Shown here: positions 15,781 through 23,250 of the stretch, one piece after another
Position numbering within the stretch: position 1 is the stretch's first letter
Layout: each line of letters starts with the position of its first letter
Assembly (NCBI GenBank): GCA_903833215.1
Contig: CAILEM010000082.1
Location: forward strand, 1 to 64,000
DNA length: 64,000 bases
Direction of reading: 5' to 3'
Source of the DNA: an uncultured Armatimonadota bacterium
Lineage (GTDB): Bacteria > Armatimonadota > Fimbriimonadia > Fimbriimonadales > Fimbriimonadaceae
Made by a program: the position numbers and the translations under genes
The notes under the pieces: generated by a model
What the model was told of the DNA's origin: nothing
What the model saw: the letters and a program-made list of their open reading frames with translations, nothing else
Databases searched by the model: none

Positions 15781-16413
15781 ATGCATCGAAAGACTGTCTT
15801 TGTTCGCCTTCTTGCTGCGATCTTAATGATCGCGATCCTCTTGGTGCCCATCGAGTCGTTTGCCCAACGCCGTGGCTCGTTTGGCGGTGGCGGTGGCGGT
15901 CGGTCCTTTGGTGGATTTTCTGGAGGCAGCCGAAGGTCCTCAGGCGGATCGTTCGGTGGCGGATCCCGTCAGTTTGGCGGAATTAGCGGTGGATCTCGAT
16001 CGACCCAAAGCCCTCGTGGTTCGTTCGGACGAAGCAACACCTCCTCAAGTTCCAGCGCACGAAGTTCGAGTTCCTTCGGTCGCCCGAGGACGTTTACGTC
16101 AACACAATCACGCGGAGGATCGCCATTCAATAGACCATCCTATTTAGGATCAGGATTCCACTCTTACGGTGGTGGCTATTATTACGGCGGCTACCCAGTT
16201 CGCTACTACGGCGGCGGATATGGCAGCTATTGGTTCCACCCAGCTTGGTACTACTACATGCCGTTCCACCCCGCGTTCTTCTACAGCCAGCCTTACTATT
16301 CGGGCGGTTACTATCAACCAGGTGGGTTCAGCATCATGCGGCTGTTCATCGCCATCCTGTTTTTCATGTTCATCTTCTGGCTGTTTAGCAGGATGTTCTC
16401 AAGAAGATATTGA
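15781..16413 (+). CDS. Exported Gly/Ser/Tyr-rich low-complexity protein with C-terminal membrane anchor
   Basis: A 210-residue protein with a signal peptide (about residues 1-28, MHRKTVFVRLL then a hydrophobic core ending SFAQ). A Gly/Ser/Arg-rich low-complexity region follows (29-120), then a Gly/Tyr-rich region with YGGGYY-like blocks, and a very hydrophobic C-terminal segment (about 183-202) before RMFSRRY. This is a tail-anchored surface or periplasmic layout. Similar composition occurs in bacterial cell-wall or matrix proteins, but no family assignment is possible. It follows the upstream gene by 16 nt and ends at a bidirectional hairpin. Confidence 0.78.
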   Translation: MHRKTVFVRLLAAILMIAILLVPIESFAQRRGSFGGGGGGRSFGGFSGGSRRSSGGSFGGGSRQFGGISGGSRSTQSPRGSFGRSNTSSSSSARSSSSFGRPRTFTSTQSRGGSPFNRPSYLGSGFHSYGGGYYYGGYPVRYYGGGYGSYWFHPAWYYYMPFHPAFFYSQPYYSGGYYQPGGFSIMRLFIAILFFMFIFWLFSRMFSRRY

Positions 16414-16420
16414 AGCCTCA

Positions 16421-16460
16421 GTTGTCCAATACCGGCAGGAAGCTACTGGTATTGGACAAC
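16421..16460. terminator. Palindrome shared by two convergent genes
   Basis: Perfect 13-bp arms GTTGTCCAATACC (16421-16433) and GGTATTGGACAAC (16448-16460) surround a 14-nt loop. The right arm encodes the last residues of the minus-strand VanW gene, whose stop codon lies in the loop. No long T run follows either side. Confidence 0.65.
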
Positions 16461-17180
16461 CCGATTCATTGCAGGATATGTATCAAGCGAGATCAATTCT
16501 CGTTCCTCACCCATGACGCGGTAGACAGCGACTTCGCAGCCTTCCTTGCCGGAATTCCTGACTCTTGACTGGCCAGACTGCTTCCCAATGCGAAACGTCT
16601 GATAGTCCTGCGTCTGGCGAATTTCTGAGACCACTTGTGGCTTGACCGGGATTCCCTTCGGTCCGATCACGGATATCACCAACATGTCTCCCTCCTGTGA
16701 TCCTTGAATTCGAACCGCAAAGGGGTAAGGATTCTGAAACTTAAGGTCGATGTTGCTGTACGCAACAGCGGCATCTCGTCCCGGCTGCACATAACCGGGA
16801 GCAAACCGATGTCGATGGCGCTCGACAATCTTCAGTCCCGCCATCAGCGCAGCATTGTAGAGGGTCGTTGACGTCTGGCAGACGCCTCCGCCCCAATCGG
16901 ATATGAGTTGCCCGTTGTAGCTGACTGGGGCCCTGCGGTACCCCTGATCCTGCGAAAAGGTTCCCACGCGACGATTGAAGGAAAACTCGCCTCCTGGTCG
17001 AATCTCTGCCCCCTGAAGCCGGTTTAGCGCGAGCAATGAGTTGTGCCGCTGTGAGTGACTTCGACCCTCCAAAGACGTTCCGTACGAGGCCAAGGTCTTG
17101 TCTCTGGGTAGGTTTGAGAACGCCAAGGAGCCCATCATCACAGCAAGAGCGATGACAAAAAGTGCCAGGATCGCCTTCAT
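16443..17180 (-). CDS. VanW family protein
   Basis: Exported or membrane-anchored protein of the VanW family, found in vancomycin-resistance operons and widely elsewhere; its biochemical role is unproven. An N-terminal hydrophobic segment (about 3-23) acts as signal or anchor. The family signature is present: RPGGEFSFNRRVG (about 61-73) and GGGVCQTSTTLYNAAL (about 96-111), followed by RHRFAPGYVQPGRDAAV. Its ATG overlaps the macroglobulin stop codon (ATGA), so the two are translationally coupled. The link with a macroglobulin suggests an envelope protection or peptidoglycan role. That is inference. Confidence 0.9.
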   Translation of the reverse strand: MKAILALFVIALAVMMGSLAFSNLPRDKTLASYGTSLEGRSHSQRHNSLLALNRLQGAEIRPGGEFSFNRRVGTFSQDQGYRRAPVSYNGQLISDWGGGVCQTSTTLYNAALMAGLKIVERHRHRFAPGYVQPGRDAAVAYSNIDLKFQNPYPFAVRIQGSQEGDMLVISVIGPKGIPVKPQVVSEIRQTQDYQTFRIGKQSGQSRVRNSGKEGCEVAVYRVMGEERELISLDTYPAMNRVVQYQ

Positions 17181-20100
17181 TTGACCTCCAATAGGGTCTC
17201 AGCACCTGACGCACGCTCTTTCAGGTCATACATATTTGAGAGGGTCGTCGGCAATGCGTGGGCCATGCCAAGACCTTCGGCTCGCATCGTGTAGGTGAGT
17301 GTCTGCTTTCCCTCGCGAAGGTTGCGTACAAAGAACGCCACCTTTTCATCACGAACCACAAAGCGGTCCCACCAAAAGCTCCATTCCTCTCCCTCGCTCA
17401 ATTCTTCCCTGTCGGTTACTCGGCAGTTGCTCGGAGTTGGATCCTCGATCAGGATAAATTGGCGTGCCTTGCTCGATTCCACCGTCAATTCGACTCGAAC
17501 GATATCACCGCTCTCCGCCCACTTTACGGGCCTCTTCGTCGGCATTAGCATCATCGAGCCATCTTCGAGTTTTCGAGCTTCCATCCGGAAGTATTTCCTC
17601 TCGATCTTTAGCCCAGGAATCGGCTGAGACGATGCGATTTGTGGCTGAATTTCGGTCGCCTGCATATCCATCGCGACATAGCATGTGCCTGTCCCGGTTT
17701 TCTCGACGCGGAACGTGTTCGGCCCAGAGTGTAACTCCGCGAGTGGGACATACAAGGATGTCGCCTGCGAGTCCGACTTACTGGAGTCTATATGGGCCTG
17801 CTTTACAAGAACTCCATTCACCAAAACCTTCACGTCCATCTTGCCGACAATTTCATGTCTCGCCGAAAGGTATCGGGTCACTCCGATGAGGGAATACGAC
17901 GTATCTCGAGTGGAATCCCACATATCTCCCTTTCGATGAGCCATGAGATACCGCACGATGCGGGGAGCGATCGGGTCGGAAGGTCGAACGGTCATAACTG
18001 CCGTAAGCGCTAACGCTGAGCTCTCTGAGCCCCAATCAGAATCCGAATTATCCCAGTACGCGCCGGTTGGGCCCTGATGGGCAATCTCAATCAATCGATC
18101 CATCATTCGGTCCCGTTCTGCTGTGAAATCTGCCCCCATCTCGTTCGTGGCCAACACGAGAGTTGCGCGGTCAGCTGCAGAGGTCTTCCGAGTTCGAATG
18201 CCTGAATATGCTAACTTTGCGTCCTTAACTTGCCCATATCTGGCCAAAGCGTAAATCACGTAGCACTTGCCACGCATGTCATCTGAGGCCCATTCTTTAC
18301 TTTTGGCCCGTTTTGCGCACCACGTAATAGCCTTGTCGAGATTCACCTTATGGACTGGAAAACCAGCTTGTTTGCAGCGATCCAAACCATCCAGAACAAG
18401 AGCCGTCATAAAGGGATCTGATTTGTCGTTTTGCCACCAACCCCAGCCGCCATCCTCATGTTGCATTCGACCCAGGCGAACCATGGAATCGGCAGCGATC
18501 TTTGGAATCTGCTGATCCAAATTCGGATGCGGAATACCAAGTTCCCTTACAGTCTTTGCCACGAGGATGCTGGGCATAAACCGGCTCATGGTCTGTTCGA
18601 CACAGCCATATGGAAAGCCGATGAGACCGTCGAGTGAATTCACCAGGTTGCCAGCGATGCTTCCTGCCACGCTAATTTTGACCCTGCCTGTTGTTCGATC
18701 CAGCTTGTTGCTCAAATCGATGTTATAGTCCTTGGCCTCCGTGAATTCATCAGCCCAGGTGTTGGATACCGACACGCCATGTGCGTACACGGGAAATCCC
18801 TGTTCCACTCCATCGCTTGCTCCCCCATCGATCCACGCTTTTGCAGTCACTACTGCGCGGCCCGGATTTCCAGTTTTGATTCCAAAGTTCAGCGATGTTG
18901 GTCGATCTGCCGCAACGCGAATGGTCTGTTTCAAATCCCCTGAGAGATTGATCCCAGTCGCCAAGACTTCGAAGTGAACATCCTTGTCCGAGCCCGTGTC
19001 GTTGGTCACAATGATCGTCATCTGGCGATCGTCTGACTGGACCAAAAACTCAGGCATTTCAAGTCGGACCATGAGTTTCTTCCGGGCTCGAAACCTGGAA
19101 ATAGCTTTTCCAACTGAGGTGCCATCGGTTACGCCGATAGCAGTCGTCCGCCACTCGGTGAGGTTGTCGGGAAGCGGCACAGATACCCTGGCCGTCCCGG
19201 TGGCGTCAGTTTGCACTGTCGGAAGCCACGCCGCCGTATCAAGAAACCTCTTTCGAATTGCGACGTTGGCACCGCCCTTATCGCCACCATCAAGGTAGAC
19301 CTCCGAGAACGAGTAGCTCGTCGTTACTGAGTTCATCCGTTTCGGATAAAACGATTCGAATACGTTGAAGTTATCTTCGCGGATGGCGTAAATCGACTCA
19401 TCGACAACCCCGAGTGAGACTTCGGCCGGGACAGGATGTCCTTGAAAGTCCGCGGTATGGACCGTGAGCTTCGCAACACCGCCAGGCTCGAATTCGGGTT
19501 TGTCACTTTCGACCGACACCCTCAAGCGCTGGTTGCCTGGTTCAACCGTGAGCCTTGAATCTCCCTCAAAGAACTTCTTCTTGTGAACGTATGCCACGCT
19601 CACGAAACAATTGGGAATGAAGTTGGCCTTAACGGGTATCTCGACTGTTGTGGCATCCGCCGTTAAGGCAACCACCTTTTTCCAAAGTACGGAGTCGGAC
19701 TGCACGGTTACGAGTGCTGAGCCACCCGGCACGATGGTCCGAATGAGAACCTTCGCAGAATCCCCAATTCGATATTTCCGCTTGTCCAAAACGACTTCGA
19801 GCCTTGACTGGTCAGCCTGAGAATTCCATTTCCCACCCAAAATATAAGAGTGTTCATCGGTCACGATGACTTTCCCGCTGTCGTCTTTACTGTACGCCTT
19901 CAGCCGAAGTGTGCCCTTCCCTTCTGCCTTAACCGCCACGTGGACAACACCATCGGGGCCCGTGATCGCATGATACGTTGATCGAGGAATCAACTTTGAC
20001 TTGTTTCCAACCCATTCCTCGTTACTTGCTTGAATCGTTACAGATCGACCGGCGACCGGCGAGTGCATCGCGTCGTAACCCGTCGTTCGGAGTTGCAGAT

Positions 20101-21874
20101 CAACAAGGTCACCCGGGGAAACGAGATAGTTTTGACAAGTTGCCGTCAAGTTATAGGCACCTCTCACAACGTGCACCGTTCCAGCGCCGTCCGTATACTT
20201 TTTGGAAGGGTCAGTCACGCCAACGTTTACGCCGAAATCAAGATCGCTGAGCAGGATCGAATGATCGTTGGGCTGACGGGTCTCAAATTGCACCACCGCC
20301 TCGCCTTTAGTGTTCGTCGTCACGTCGATTGCCTTTGAATATTCCCCACCCGAATACGAGCTTCGCCCTCTTGAATCGAAATCGTCGTCCGGATCGGAAC
20401 TCGCTGCAGGTGATTGATAGATCGAGCCCTTGACGGTTGCCCCAACCACAGGACCACCATAGTAGTACGTGCACTTGATTGCGAACTCGGCCTTCTCGCC
20501 AATCACGTAGTAGGGCTTCAGCGGCCGAATTTGAACCGACATCTCCGGTTTGCGGTAAGCCATCATGTCGACAAAGTGCGAACCTCGTCCACCGAAACCC
20601 TGCGCTACGATTCTATAAAGACCAGGACCGGCCTCTTTGCTGGTCTTGAAGTGACCGCTAAACGATCCATGGTTTGAGACAGTCGCTGTCAGTTTTGCAA
20701 TTGGTTCATCGTCGGTGTCATTGATTTGGATTTCGACATTTCCAGAGACAGGCGGCAAGTATTCCGAGCCAGACTTCCTTCGCACGATGCCCTTGAATTG
20801 GACTTCATCGCCGGGTCGGTAGATGGGTCGATCGGTGTAGAGAACGAATTTGGCTTTTCCGGAATTCTCCGAATCCTCATTCGTATAGACGCCAACCATT
20901 CCCACGGAGTTTTCGTGTTCAGCCACGAGACAGGCTCGAGAAGCATCCTGATCGGGAGAAGATGCATACGTCGTCTCTGCCAGCCCATCGGTGCCACAGA
21001 GAACTGTGCGAACTTCCCTAAGCGCATTTTGAGACCAGACTTTTGCACCCGGAATTGGCTTGCCGGTGCTGAGATCGGACACGTATGCGAGCGCCTGACC
21101 TTTGGCTGTCTTTGTCACCAACGCCACATGGGTTACGTTGATATAAGCTGCCGCCTGACTCCCATTGCCGCTACAGCGGACCCAATAGATCCCTTCCGCC
21201 AAATTGCTGAGATTCAAGGGCTCGACAAACGCTCCCTCCGAATCCTTCTTCTTCACCTTATGCCTAAACTCCAACTCCTTCTTGGAGTACTTCTCGAAGT
21301 CGGCAGGAATAGTGAAACCTTCCCGAGTCCTTAAGGCAGAAACCGCCTTACCGAATTGACCGGAATGCAGCAGTTCCTTGAACGCGACACGATCGATTTC
21401 CACATTAATGGTGTCGCCAGTGCGAAAGCCATGGAGTTCGACTTGCGGTTCATCGCCGGTCAACCACACTCGCTGACTCGCGTACATTTTCAGGTACGGC
21501 TCATTGGGTTCGAGGCGAACGTCAAATTGAGTTGCACGCCCTTCTTTCACAGTGACGCGCTTGGCCTTGGCGTGGTGTTCCTGTGCGAATACGTGGATTT
21601 CATATTCGCCAGCACGCACATTGCGGAATCGGAAATGCCCTTTGCTATCTGCCTCGGCGATACGGTCCCGTATGGAATCGTCGTCTGGGACCGACAACGT
21701 GACTTCAGCACCGGCTAAGGGCTTTCCCGTTTCAGAGAGAATGACGGTGCCCTCAAGCTTCCCGATGGGGACTTCTTGGGTGACGCCATAGCCAAATAGC
21801 ACGACGCAGAACAGGATTCCGACAACCAAGCTGAGAAGGCCCACGAGGGAACCCAAACTTTGGATTCGTTTCAC
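17177..21874 (-). CDS. Bacterial alpha-2-macroglobulin with GCVEQ thioester
   Basis: Large periplasmic protease-trapping protein (about 1565 residues). I place the start at GTG 21874, which follows GGAGG at a proper distance and overlaps the upstream stop codon; the further 25-codon extension lies inside that gene. After one N-terminal membrane segment comes a carboxypeptidase-regulatory-like beta-sandwich (KLEGTVILSETGKPLAGAEV). Macroglobulin domains follow (YTDRPIYRPGDEVQFKG; SLGVVDESIYAI), then the A2M domain (LPDNLTEWRTTAIGVTDG), and the thioester domain with GCVEQ near residues 1090-1094 and GGWGWW beyond. The Cys and Gln needed for the thioester are both present. Bacterial homologues usually sit beside penicillin-binding protein 1C; here the partners are VanW and a membrane protein. 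Confidence 0.92.
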   Translation of the reverse strand: MKRIQSLGSLVGLLSLVVGILFCVVLFGYGVTQEVPIGKLEGTVILSETGKPLAGAEVTLSVPDDDSIRDRIAEADSKGHFRFRNVRAGEYEIHVFAQEHHAKAKRVTVKEGRATQFDVRLEPNEPYLKMYASQRVWLTGDEPQVELHGFRTGDTINVEIDRVAFKELLHSGQFGKAVSALRTREGFTIPADFEKYSKKELEFRHKVKKKDSEGAFVEPLNLSNLAEGIYWVRCSGNGSQAAAYINVTHVALVTKTAKGQALAYVSDLSTGKPIPGAKVWSQNALREVRTVLCGTDGLAETTYASSPDQDASRACLVAEHENSVGMVGVYTNEDSENSGKAKFVLYTDRPIYRPGDEVQFKGIVRRKSGSEYLPPVSGNVEIQINDTDDEPIAKLTATVSNHGSFSGHFKTSKEAGPGLYRIVAQGFGGRGSHFVDMMAYRKPEMSVQIRPLKPYYVIGEKAEFAIKCTYYYGGPVVGATVKGSIYQSPAASSDPDDDFDSRGRSSYSGGEYSKAIDVTTNTKGEAVVQFETRQPNDHSILLSDLDFGVNVGVTDPSKKYTDGAGTVHVVRGAYNLTATCQNYLVSPGDLVDLQLRTTGYDAMHSPVAGRSVTIQASNEEWVGNKSKLIPRSTYHAITGPDGVVHVAVKAEGKGTLRLKAYSKDDSGKVIVTDEHSYILGGKWNSQADQSRLEVVLDKRKYRIGDSAKVLIRTIVPGGSALVTVQSDSVLWKKVVALTADATTVEIPVKANFIPNCFVSVAYVHKKKFFEGDSRLTVEPGNQRLRVSVESDKPEFEPGGVAKLTVHTADFQGHPVPAEVSLGVVDESIYAIREDNFNVFESFYPKRMNSVTTSYSFSEVYLDGGDKGGANVAIRKRFLDTAAWLPTVQTDATGTARVSVPLPDNLTEWRTTAIGVTDGTSVGKAISRFRARKKLMVRLEMPEFLVQSDDRQMTIIVTNDTGSDKDVHFEVLATGINLSGDLKQTIRVAADRPTSLNFGIKTGNPGRAVVTAKAWIDGGASDGVEQGFPVYAHGVSVSNTWADEFTEAKDYNIDLSNKLDRTTGRVKISVAGSIAGNLVNSLDGLIGFPYGCVEQTMSRFMPSILVAKTVRELGIPHPNLDQQIPKIAADSMVRLGRMQHEDGGWGWWQNDKSDPFMTALVLDGLDRCKQAGFPVHKVNLDKAITWCAKRAKSKEWASDDMRGKCYVIYALARYGQVKDAKLAYSGIRTRKTSAADRATLVLATNEMGADFTAERDRMMDRLIEIAHQGPTGAYWDNSDSDWGSESSALALTAVMTVRPSDPIAPRIVRYLMAHRKGDMWDSTRDTSYSLIGVTRYLSARHEIVGKMDVKVLVNGVLVKQAHIDSSKSDSQATSLYVPLAELHSGPNTFRVEKTGTGTCYVAMDMQATEIQPQIASSQPIPGLKIERKYFRMEARKLEDGSMMLMPTKRPVKWAESGDIVRVELTVESSKARQFILIEDPTPSNCRVTDREELSEGEEWSFWWDRFVVRDEKVAFFVRNLREGKQTLTYTMRAEGLGMAHALPTTLSNMYDLKERASGAETLLEVK

Positions 21875-23250
21875 ATTGCCTCCGGTGAAATACGCTTCCA
21901 AGAAACGGCTACGATGCCGATGGCAGCAATGGCCATAGCGAGTGCCCACCAGCCAAAGCTGTGCAACTTCTCTTGGCGGGTTAGGTCCATGGCATCGCCA
22001 ATCCAGTCAACAGCAACGGCATTCGCTGCTCCTGCAGCGATAACAACGCCAAGAGTGGCAAGCGACCACATGCGCCGATATGCAAGAACAAAACCGCTGA
22101 AGCCTAAGCCAACTACCACACCCGAAGCCCCTTTCGCCCCCAGGACAACGATCGAGAGAACCGGGAGGCACACGAGAACAAACCCCCATAGAATGCTGGC
22201 GACGGAGTCCTGTGCCGCCTTGATCTCAACTTTTCGCGAACTCCAATCTGCATACAGAACGGGAATCAAGGCGCCGATTGCTATTCCCGTGACGCCGTAG
22301 TGCTGACCAAGGTCAATTGCCCTCGACGAATCTGGCGAGGCGTCCCGCAGGACACGATAAATCACCAAGCCCATTACTGGCCCCATCGTCGCAACTGCTC
22401 TTCCATTCCCAAGTAGTAAGAGCACAACCATTCCTTCGAGGACGGCAGCCGCCATCCCAAACCCACGAAGCATCGAAAAGCCGATCGTTCCCAAAGCAAG
22501 CCAAATGACGGTGGCTAGCCCAACACGAAATGGCAGTGGCTCGGAATCCACCGGCATCAACCAGTGGACCACGAGGGCTGAGACTGAGGCGATTCCCAAG
22601 ACGATCCATAAGTCCCCTCCAACTGCCCATCTCGATACTGCATAGCCTGCTCCAGCTGCCAACACAGCGACGAGTGCCGGGTCGAGACGAGTCTTGTCGC
22701 GAGGAAGGGCCTTTTTGATGGCAACAAATACAACTGCCGCCACTGTCAGCACAATGCCAAGGGCAACGCCGATCACGGCATGATTGCCCTTTTGCTCTCC
22801 CGCCTTTCCAAGATAATCCGTCATCGTGATCAGCCCTCCAGCCAGCCCCGCAATTACTGCACCTTGGAATGAGCTAAAGAAGATCGATCCGATGGAGACC
22901 GAAAACGCAAACACGAGGCATACTCCGGGGAAACTATCCGCGCGTACGAGGTGGGGCATGCATGCACCCGCCGCGGCAAGCGCAATGGCGACACCACCTG
23001 ACAAATCGCTAAAAACAGCTGAGAGTAAGCAAACTCCAACCCCCGCAACGGCGCTGAAAATCACTGCACGCTGATCATCGAGGTGCCCGAGTTTGATGGC
23101 ACAAAACGTTGACGCCGCCACAAACGCCAGATAGGAAATCACGGCCCAGGGGCTTGGCCATCGGAATCGCTTTCCTGGCGATGGATTGCCGGAAATCAAA
23201 ATACAGAGCACAGCTAGAGCCAGCGCCAAACACGGATGAAGCGATGTCAT
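21871..23250 (-). CDS. Polytopic membrane protein of unknown function
   Basis: A 459-residue protein with about twelve to fourteen hydrophobic segments spread over its whole length, few long loops and many Ala, Gly and Val residues. I recognise no transporter signature. It is the first gene of a three-gene unit: its last codons and stop (GCA ATG TGA) overlap the GTG start of the macroglobulin gene, and its 3' end supplies that gene's ribosome binding site. This tight coupling suggests that it acts in the same envelope process. Confidence 0.75.
   Translation of the reverse strand: MTSLHPCLALALAVLCILISGNPSPGKRFRWPSPWAVISYLAFVAASTFCAIKLGHLDDQRAVIFSAVAGVGVCLLSAVFSDLSGGVAIALAAAGACMPHLVRADSFPGVCLVFAFSVSIGSIFFSSFQGAVIAGLAGGLITMTDYLGKAGEQKGNHAVIGVALGIVLTVAAVVFVAIKKALPRDKTRLDPALVAVLAAGAGYAVSRWAVGGDLWIVLGIASVSALVVHWLMPVDSEPLPFRVGLATVIWLALGTIGFSMLRGFGMAAAVLEGMVVLLLLGNGRAVATMGPVMGLVIYRVLRDASPDSSRAIDLGQHYGVTGIAIGALIPVLYADWSSRKVEIKAAQDSVASILWGFVLVCLPVLSIVVLGAKGASGVVVGLGFSGFVLAYRRMWSLATLGVVIAAGAANAVAVDWIGDAMDLTRQEKLHSFGWWALAMAIAAIGIVAVSWKRISPEAM

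Follow-up and report, generated by a model that had tools for sequence, protein, structure and literature searches.

The window analyzed here is a stretch of 64,000 nucleotides from an uncultured Armatimonadota bacterium. It contains an operon that runs from position 23250 to 16443 on the minus strand and encodes a polytopic membrane protein (P1), an alpha-2-macroglobulin (A2M) and a VanW-domain protein, in this order. The three genes are joined by two 4-nt overlaps, and the features of the locus are as follows.

21871 to 23250, minus strand: P1, polytopic membrane protein of 459 aa; no Pfam or NCBIfam family; predicted membrane-pyrophosphatase fold without the catalytic motifs.
21871 to 21874, minus strand: 4-nt P1/A2M overlap GTGA, with a GGAGG ribosome binding site within P1.
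17177 to 21874, minus strand: Type I (thioester) bacterial A2M of 1565 aa with a GTG start; PYGCVEQ thioester, bait-region domain and N-terminal hydrophobic stretch (by eye).
17177 to 17180, minus strand: 4-nt A2M/VanW overlap ATGA, with a GGAGG site within A2M.
16443 to 17180, minus strand: VanW-domain protein of 245 aa; N-terminal helix, VanW domain (residues 44-171), G5-like C-terminal part, invariant Cys101 and His124.
16421 to 16460, no strand assigned: terminator-like 18-nt inverted repeat between convergent genes, without a T run, covering the VanW stop codon (RNA z -4.7).

All three genes were found where a preliminary description of this DNA had placed them (16443-23250). That description had also proposed 4-nt overlaps at both junctions and a ribosome binding site for the A2M gene inside the upstream gene, and both proposals held: GGAGG lies within P1 and ends 4 nt upstream of the A2M start. 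One detail had to be corrected, namely the ATGTGA reported at 21871-21874. The 3′ end of P1 reads ...GCA ATG TGA, where ATG is the last P1 codon, and the A2M gene starts with the GTG inside this sequence, giving the overlap GTGA (21874-21871). At the A2M-VanW junction the overlap ATGA occupies positions 17180-17177, with GGAGGTCAA just before it. The positions of these junctions are widely conserved. When 30 loci were read, the window's own included, the VanW start (ATG, GTG or TTG) was located exactly 4 nt inside the end of A2M in all 28 loci with VanW in reach (VanW is missing from L016 and L030, which stop at contig ends). Likewise, the A2M start was at -4 relative to the end of P1 in 24 of the 28 loci with P1 in reach, P1 being absent from L016 (contig end) and from L028 (no match); it should be noted that some loci have further candidate start codons close by. 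Codon positions 1, 2 and 3 differ from the nearest relative, L006, by 0.25-0.39, 0.15-0.25 and 0.64-0.68, which is the pattern of selected coding genes. The operon is flanked upstream by a divergent aldolase gene (start 23454) and downstream by a convergent gene with its end at 16413. Together with the inverted repeat, these flanks make it most likely that the transcription unit consists of exactly these three genes. A scan for consensus terminators returned 7 sites versus 7.7 in shuffled sequences, none of them at the operon end and the 18-nt inverted repeat not being listed, while a promoter scan returned one weak site versus a mean of 4.1 in shuffles. The convergent gene itself (15781-16413, plus strand) encodes a glycine/serine-rich protein without a Pfam match and ends 30 nt from VanW.

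The macroglobulin gave Pfam matches above the cut-offs to A2M_BRD, A2M, TED, bMG10, MG2 and CarboxypepD_reg, the TED match covering just 126 of 312 profile positions, and YfhM is among its matches in PDB sequences. The protein thus carries the bait-region and A2M/TED/bMG10 domains of a Type I A2M, as well as the CXEQ thioester motif in the form PYGCVEQ. PYGC-x-EQ is unvarying across 27 aligned A2Ms, with C1091, E1093 and Q1094 invariant. We therefore assign it to the Type I thioester A2Ms, for which covalent trapping of proteases is the predicted role. By eye, the N-terminus shows a hydrophobic stretch and no conserved lipobox. A C-terminal lysine anchor was considered and is not supported, since among 30 sequences (one of which, L030, is cut by its contig) the last residue is K in only 6 and R in 13. 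The nearest named relatives among the best 80 loci belong to the Armatimonadota (Fimbriimonadaceae and Chthonomonadaceae, by record titles). A second A2M of the genome (contig C90, L115:5126-10886), flanked by AMMECR1 on one side and by a thioredoxin/polysaccharide-deacetylase protein on the other, lacks the C-x-EQ motif.

The third protein matches the VanW Pfam domain PF04294 with 148.9 bits. Its score against the NCBIfam family vanW-gen is 54.6 bits, compared to a cut-off of 365, so that a glycopeptide-resistance accessory protein VanW was rejected; we prefer to read the protein as an enzyme that acts on the wall, not as a resistance gene. Cys101 and His124 did not vary in 27 close and 20 diverse VanW sequences. 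The predicted model has an N-terminal helix and a pLDDT of 94. Its C-terminal part is weakly G5-like (Foldseek E 7.7e-4 to 4fzq, but only Z 3.6 in structure alignment); the Pfam G5 match remained below the cut-off, and no Pfam peptidoglycan-binding domain was detected. G5 domains are sugar-binding. When the model was compared with the PDB, no row exceeded Z 6.1, the rows at this level being ribosomal proteins and the G5 rows reaching at most Z 3.6, although families absent from the PDB would escape such a comparison. A profile search against PDB sequences gave a best E of 0.02, for an IgA1-protease G5 chain. The parts of PMC12729407 consulted describe VanW as a second family of L,D-transpeptidases, identified in C. 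difficile and reviewed there as having a triad of Cys, His and a small residue; the family is mostly Gram-positive, and some members are without transpeptidase activity. By comparison with this triad, Cys101 and His124 may form the catalytic pair, and the protein is probably a cell-wall crosslinking enzyme. A second VanW, longer and carrying a G5 domain, is encoded in the same genome, along with one YkuD match.

No Pfam or NCBIfam family was found in P1. Its AlphaFold model, built with 12 sequences, is of moderate confidence (pLDDT 74, lower over the first 130 residues), and matches the membrane pyrophosphatases with a Foldseek E of 2.9e-5. The alignment with VIA covers 424 of the 459 residues (Z 26.6, rmsd 3.8), the next unrelated row being at Z 8.1. 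The model therefore predicts a membrane-pyrophosphatase fold. We claim this fold and not the function, since the hhalign comparison with pyrophosphatase profiles was not significant (prob 3.7% and 0.9%). Five pyrophosphatase motifs, each found in 16 to 24 of 24 pyrophosphatases from the relatives, were seen in 0 of 27 and 0 of 12 P1 proteins, and P1 was not placed among these enzymes by sequence. A true pyrophosphatase is also present in all 31 genomes searched. The conserved residues of P1 include R299, D313, Q316, H317, R425 and K428.

To describe conservation we used 101 genomes, namely the window's own (6.2 Mb) and 100 relatives, most of which are drafts. Matches were obtained for A2M in 74, for VanW in 100 and for P1 in 45 of them. 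All 45 P1-bearing genomes also have an A2M match, and in 43 of these P1 lies immediately upstream of A2M (coordinates read by eye), the exceptions being G078, which is split over contigs, and G073, with a weak match elsewhere. VanW follows A2M directly on the same strand in 49 of the 74 genomes with an A2M match (43 genomes plus G020, G024, G061, G089 and G096, and G032 as read from pieces of C293). The other 25 have A2M without an adjoining VanW, two of them (G054 and G006) being cut by contig ends. Family f2 stands out: it includes 16 genomes that have an A2M match, 15 of which lack the adjacency, the exception being G061, and in the single-contig genome G065 the A2M (593-596 kb) and the short VanW (1642 kb) are about 1 Mb apart. 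Most f2 genomes, including G065 (L118, L119), keep both the short VanW and the larger A2M, which were not seen side by side. The remaining non-adjacent genomes are G028, G044, G091, G092, G098 and G100, as well as G004 and G005, which have a paralogous A2M only. Among 20 genomes of the window's genus, the module A2M and P1 occur together in 10 and are both absent from the other 10, counts that are not independent because the genomes are related. For 20 module genomes, 7-8 kb was retrieved at each end, giving flanks of about 6 kb, and proteins of at least 120 aa were clustered by BLASTP (E 1e-8). The only clusters recurring in at least four loci were the end of A2M, VanW, and out-of-frame ORFs overlapping the VanW gene. 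The module thus has no other recurring neighbour gene in these flanks. In G028 (L120:2442-10650), the operon is interrupted between A2M and VanW by genes for a BlaI-type repressor and a BlaR1-like M56 protein, which hints at wall-stress control in that genome.

Beyond the relatives, named genomes were scanned with thioester patterns (conserved motifs), and the best 80 A2M loci, a partial sample in which the thioester is present by construction, were retained. VanW adjoins A2M in 22 of these 80. Only 65 of the loci leave enough contig to see a neighbour, so that 22 of 65 are linked and 43 have A2M without VanW at its side. According to their record titles, the linked loci include Armatimonadota, Abditibacterium, Bacillota/Firmicutes, Omnitrophota, Melainabacteria/Obscuribacterales and Geobacteraceae. 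Nearly all are MAGs by title and some titles may be wrong; L089, for instance, is titled Actinomycetota and groups with Armatimonadota on the A2M tree. The two surveys overlap, at least four named loci (L035, L036, L039 and L041) probably deriving from the same genomes as G003, G045, G048 and G037. The tree was computed with FastTree from profile-aligned columns of 80 rows, 23 of them with VanW, the window included (a gap-rich row, one of 81, was removed, and L047 was cut at residue 1474, leaving out its VanW part). On it, the VanW-linkage label needs 8 changes versus 20.1 in shuffles, some rows labelled as without VanW being cut by contig ends. Since at least six of the 8 changes are forced by starred branches, the linkage was gained and/or lost repeatedly. 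Together with the 25 relatives mentioned above, the many A2Ms without an adjoining VanW and the separation of the genes in f2 argue against an obligate pairing.

The gene upstream of A2M differs between groups. P1 or a P1-like ORF occupies this place in 10 of the 22 VanW-linked loci among the best 80, all within or beside Armatimonadota on the tree, with weaker scores for L042, L048 and L089 (31-39 bits) and L040 (69 bits). Pfam-confirmed AMMECR1 was observed beside A2M-VanW in one Armatimonadota locus (L045) and in 7 of the 10 loci placed elsewhere (L047, L050, L061, L063, L066, L067 and L090), the gene order in the Geobacteraceae locus L066 being VanW-AMMECR1-A2M. Four loci remain: two (L043 and L049) start close to the end of a contig, and for the other two (L051 and L053) phmmer returned no AMMECR1 match, this search having also missed L066. 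AMMECR1 is likewise located upstream of A2M in seven of eight VanW-linked loci from the phylum of L047, the eighth (L154) beginning near a contig end. Outside Armatimonadota, AMMECR1 thus mostly takes the place of P1, which was seen only in and near this phylum.

In some genomes the two genes are fused. In L047 (Firmicutes UBA6811), a single ORF of 1706 aa comprises A2M (37-1476) and VanW (1474-1703). Four of 149 genomes of this phylum contain such fused ORFs (G101, which is L047, G161, G200 and G235), the one in G235 being one open frame of 1748 aa on a fetched locus that ends before VanW. The three further fusions are 74-87% identical to L047, which makes an assembly error unlikely. A2M and VanW are separate neighbouring genes in G102, G190, G226 and G260; apparent fusions in G260 and G226 arose from stops that had been read through and were not counted. 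Lower-scoring A2Ms of the same group (G152, G132, G215 and G249) showed no VanW on the fetched loci.

Excerpts of PMC4498604 and PMC5764988 describe a thioester A2M encoded beside PBP1C, and the proposal there is a division of tasks, with proteases trapped by A2M and the wall repaired by PBP1C. The preliminary description had suggested a search for a pbpC homologue elsewhere in the genome. No A2M-pbpC pair was found: A2M matches occur on contigs C82 and C90 only, and the sole Transglycosylase (Transgly) match is on C9, where no A2M is nearby. Within the best 80 named A2M loci, PBP homologues were detected only in L076 (about 3.7 kb away, on the other strand) and L111 (adjacent), using phmmer with the PBP of this genome on loci many of which are short. 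The same description had proposed a search for conserved VanW-A2M adjacency across phyla, and the adjacency indeed recurs in several phyla (by record titles) and is not confined to one strain. Its further idea, that VanW and a polytopic membrane protein together make up a different envelope-defence module, needs changing as regards P1, in whose stead AMMECR1 mostly stands outside Armatimonadota. The term envelope-defence is best kept as a putative label, VanW being better taken as a wall-acting enzyme.

The reading that we prefer, and to which we give about an even chance, is that the operon is a translationally coupled unit for an envelope protection complex that is bound to the inner membrane and faces the periplasm. 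A protease cutting the bait region of A2M would expose the CVEQ thioester and become covalently bound, and VanW, as a cysteine L,D-transpeptidase or a near wall-acting relative, would re-crosslink peptidoglycan at the same site. P1 would serve as membrane anchor or partner, with AMMECR1 in its stead in other phyla. The whole unit would be analogous to the A2M-PBP1C pair, with an unrelated transpeptidase. Given this other transpeptidase partner and the tight coupling through 4-nt overlaps and fusion, the same division of labor is, by parsimony, the most likely one. The hydrophobic N-terminus of A2M (by eye) and the N-terminal helix of the VanW model suggest that both proteins sit on the cytoplasmic membrane, facing outward.

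Other readings share much of this evidence. That unrelated envelope genes are adjacent by chance is extremely improbable: 4-nt overlaps are common between adjoining bacterial genes, but the fusions, the recurrence in several phyla and the lack of any other recurring neighbour rule out a strain-specific or chance adjacency, and a crude estimate of 5e-32 for 22 of the best 80 loci, with assumed gene numbers and shared ancestry ignored, points the same way. VanW might instead be a non-catalytic, wall-binding part that places A2M at the peptidoglycan, as the G5-like C-terminal part and the existence of inactive VanW proteins (in the consulted parts of PMC12729407) would allow. We consider this unlikely in view of Cys101 and His124, which do not vary in either alignment (27 and 20 sequences). 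Co-translation and fusion would also suit an enzyme and its substrate, and YkuD enzymes fix proteins, among them lipoproteins, onto peptidoglycan (same parts of PMC12729407), so that VanW could attach A2M covalently to the wall instead of repairing cross-links. The A2M C-terminus has no conserved Lys, however, and a fused enzyme would need to attach itself, which leaves such attachment distinctly unlikely.

The BlaI/BlaR1-like pair within the operon of G028, together with M56-like ORFs near the operon in L035 and L166, would fit a module for cell-wall stress, with A2M as a sensor instead of a trap and bait cleavage signalling via P1 or VanW. Yet M56 matches occurred in only 2 of 46 other loci searched (the query's own locus aside) and no regulator recurs, and we regard a sensing role as very unlikely. 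Equally doubtful is an extension of the preferred trap-and-crosslink reading, in which P1, as a non-hydrolysing pyrophosphatase-fold protein, would harness a flow of ions, or the binding of lipid pyrophosphates, to drive or gate the machine, and acyl groups may be exchanged between VanW and the A2M thioester, tying A2M to peptidoglycan or to attackers at sites of damage, like a bacterial complement.

The arrangement is real and conserved, and we found no prior description of it in open-licence PMC papers: none paired VanW with a macroglobulin or with AMMECR1, AMMECR1 plus macroglobulin retrieved mammalian gene expression only, and macroglobulin plus Armatimonad retrieved tilapia work only. It would represent a variant of the theme of A2M plus a wall enzyme. 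The proposed role of bacterial thioester A2Ms rests largely on a single recurrent partner, PBP1C. If our reading is correct, the coupling or fusion of an unrelated transpeptidase family to A2M in several phyla would provide independent support for a link between trapping and cross-linking, VanW proteins outside Gram-positives would gain a testable role, and the pyrophosphatase fold would have found a new use in P1.

Compared to known systems, the A2M-VanW pairing looks like an alternative to the A2M-PBP1C pair. As in E. coli YfhM-PbpC (PBP1C), a thioester A2M shares an operon with a peptidoglycan cross-linking enzyme, here a predicted one (PMC4498604, in the parts consulted); the partner here, however, is VanW and not a PBP, a membrane protein is added, and the hydrophobic A2M N-terminus is without a conserved lipobox (by eye). 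The VanW-family L,D-transpeptidases LdtCd4 and LdtCd5 of C. difficile share with our protein the VanW Pfam domain and the invariant Cys and His, whereas the window's VanW has only 245 aa and no Pfam peptidoglycan-binding domain, is coupled or fused to A2M, and has a predicted activity. P. aeruginosa MagA-F, a Type II system, resembles the locus in that A2M is encoded with partners, one having a predicted membrane helix, and differs in its six-gene operon and in MagD being without a thioester (both from the consulted parts of PMC5764988). Finally, P1 resembles the membrane-bound pyrophosphatases (PF03030) in its model over almost its entire length, but differs from them in having no Pfam match, no catalytic motifs and no significant profile similarity.
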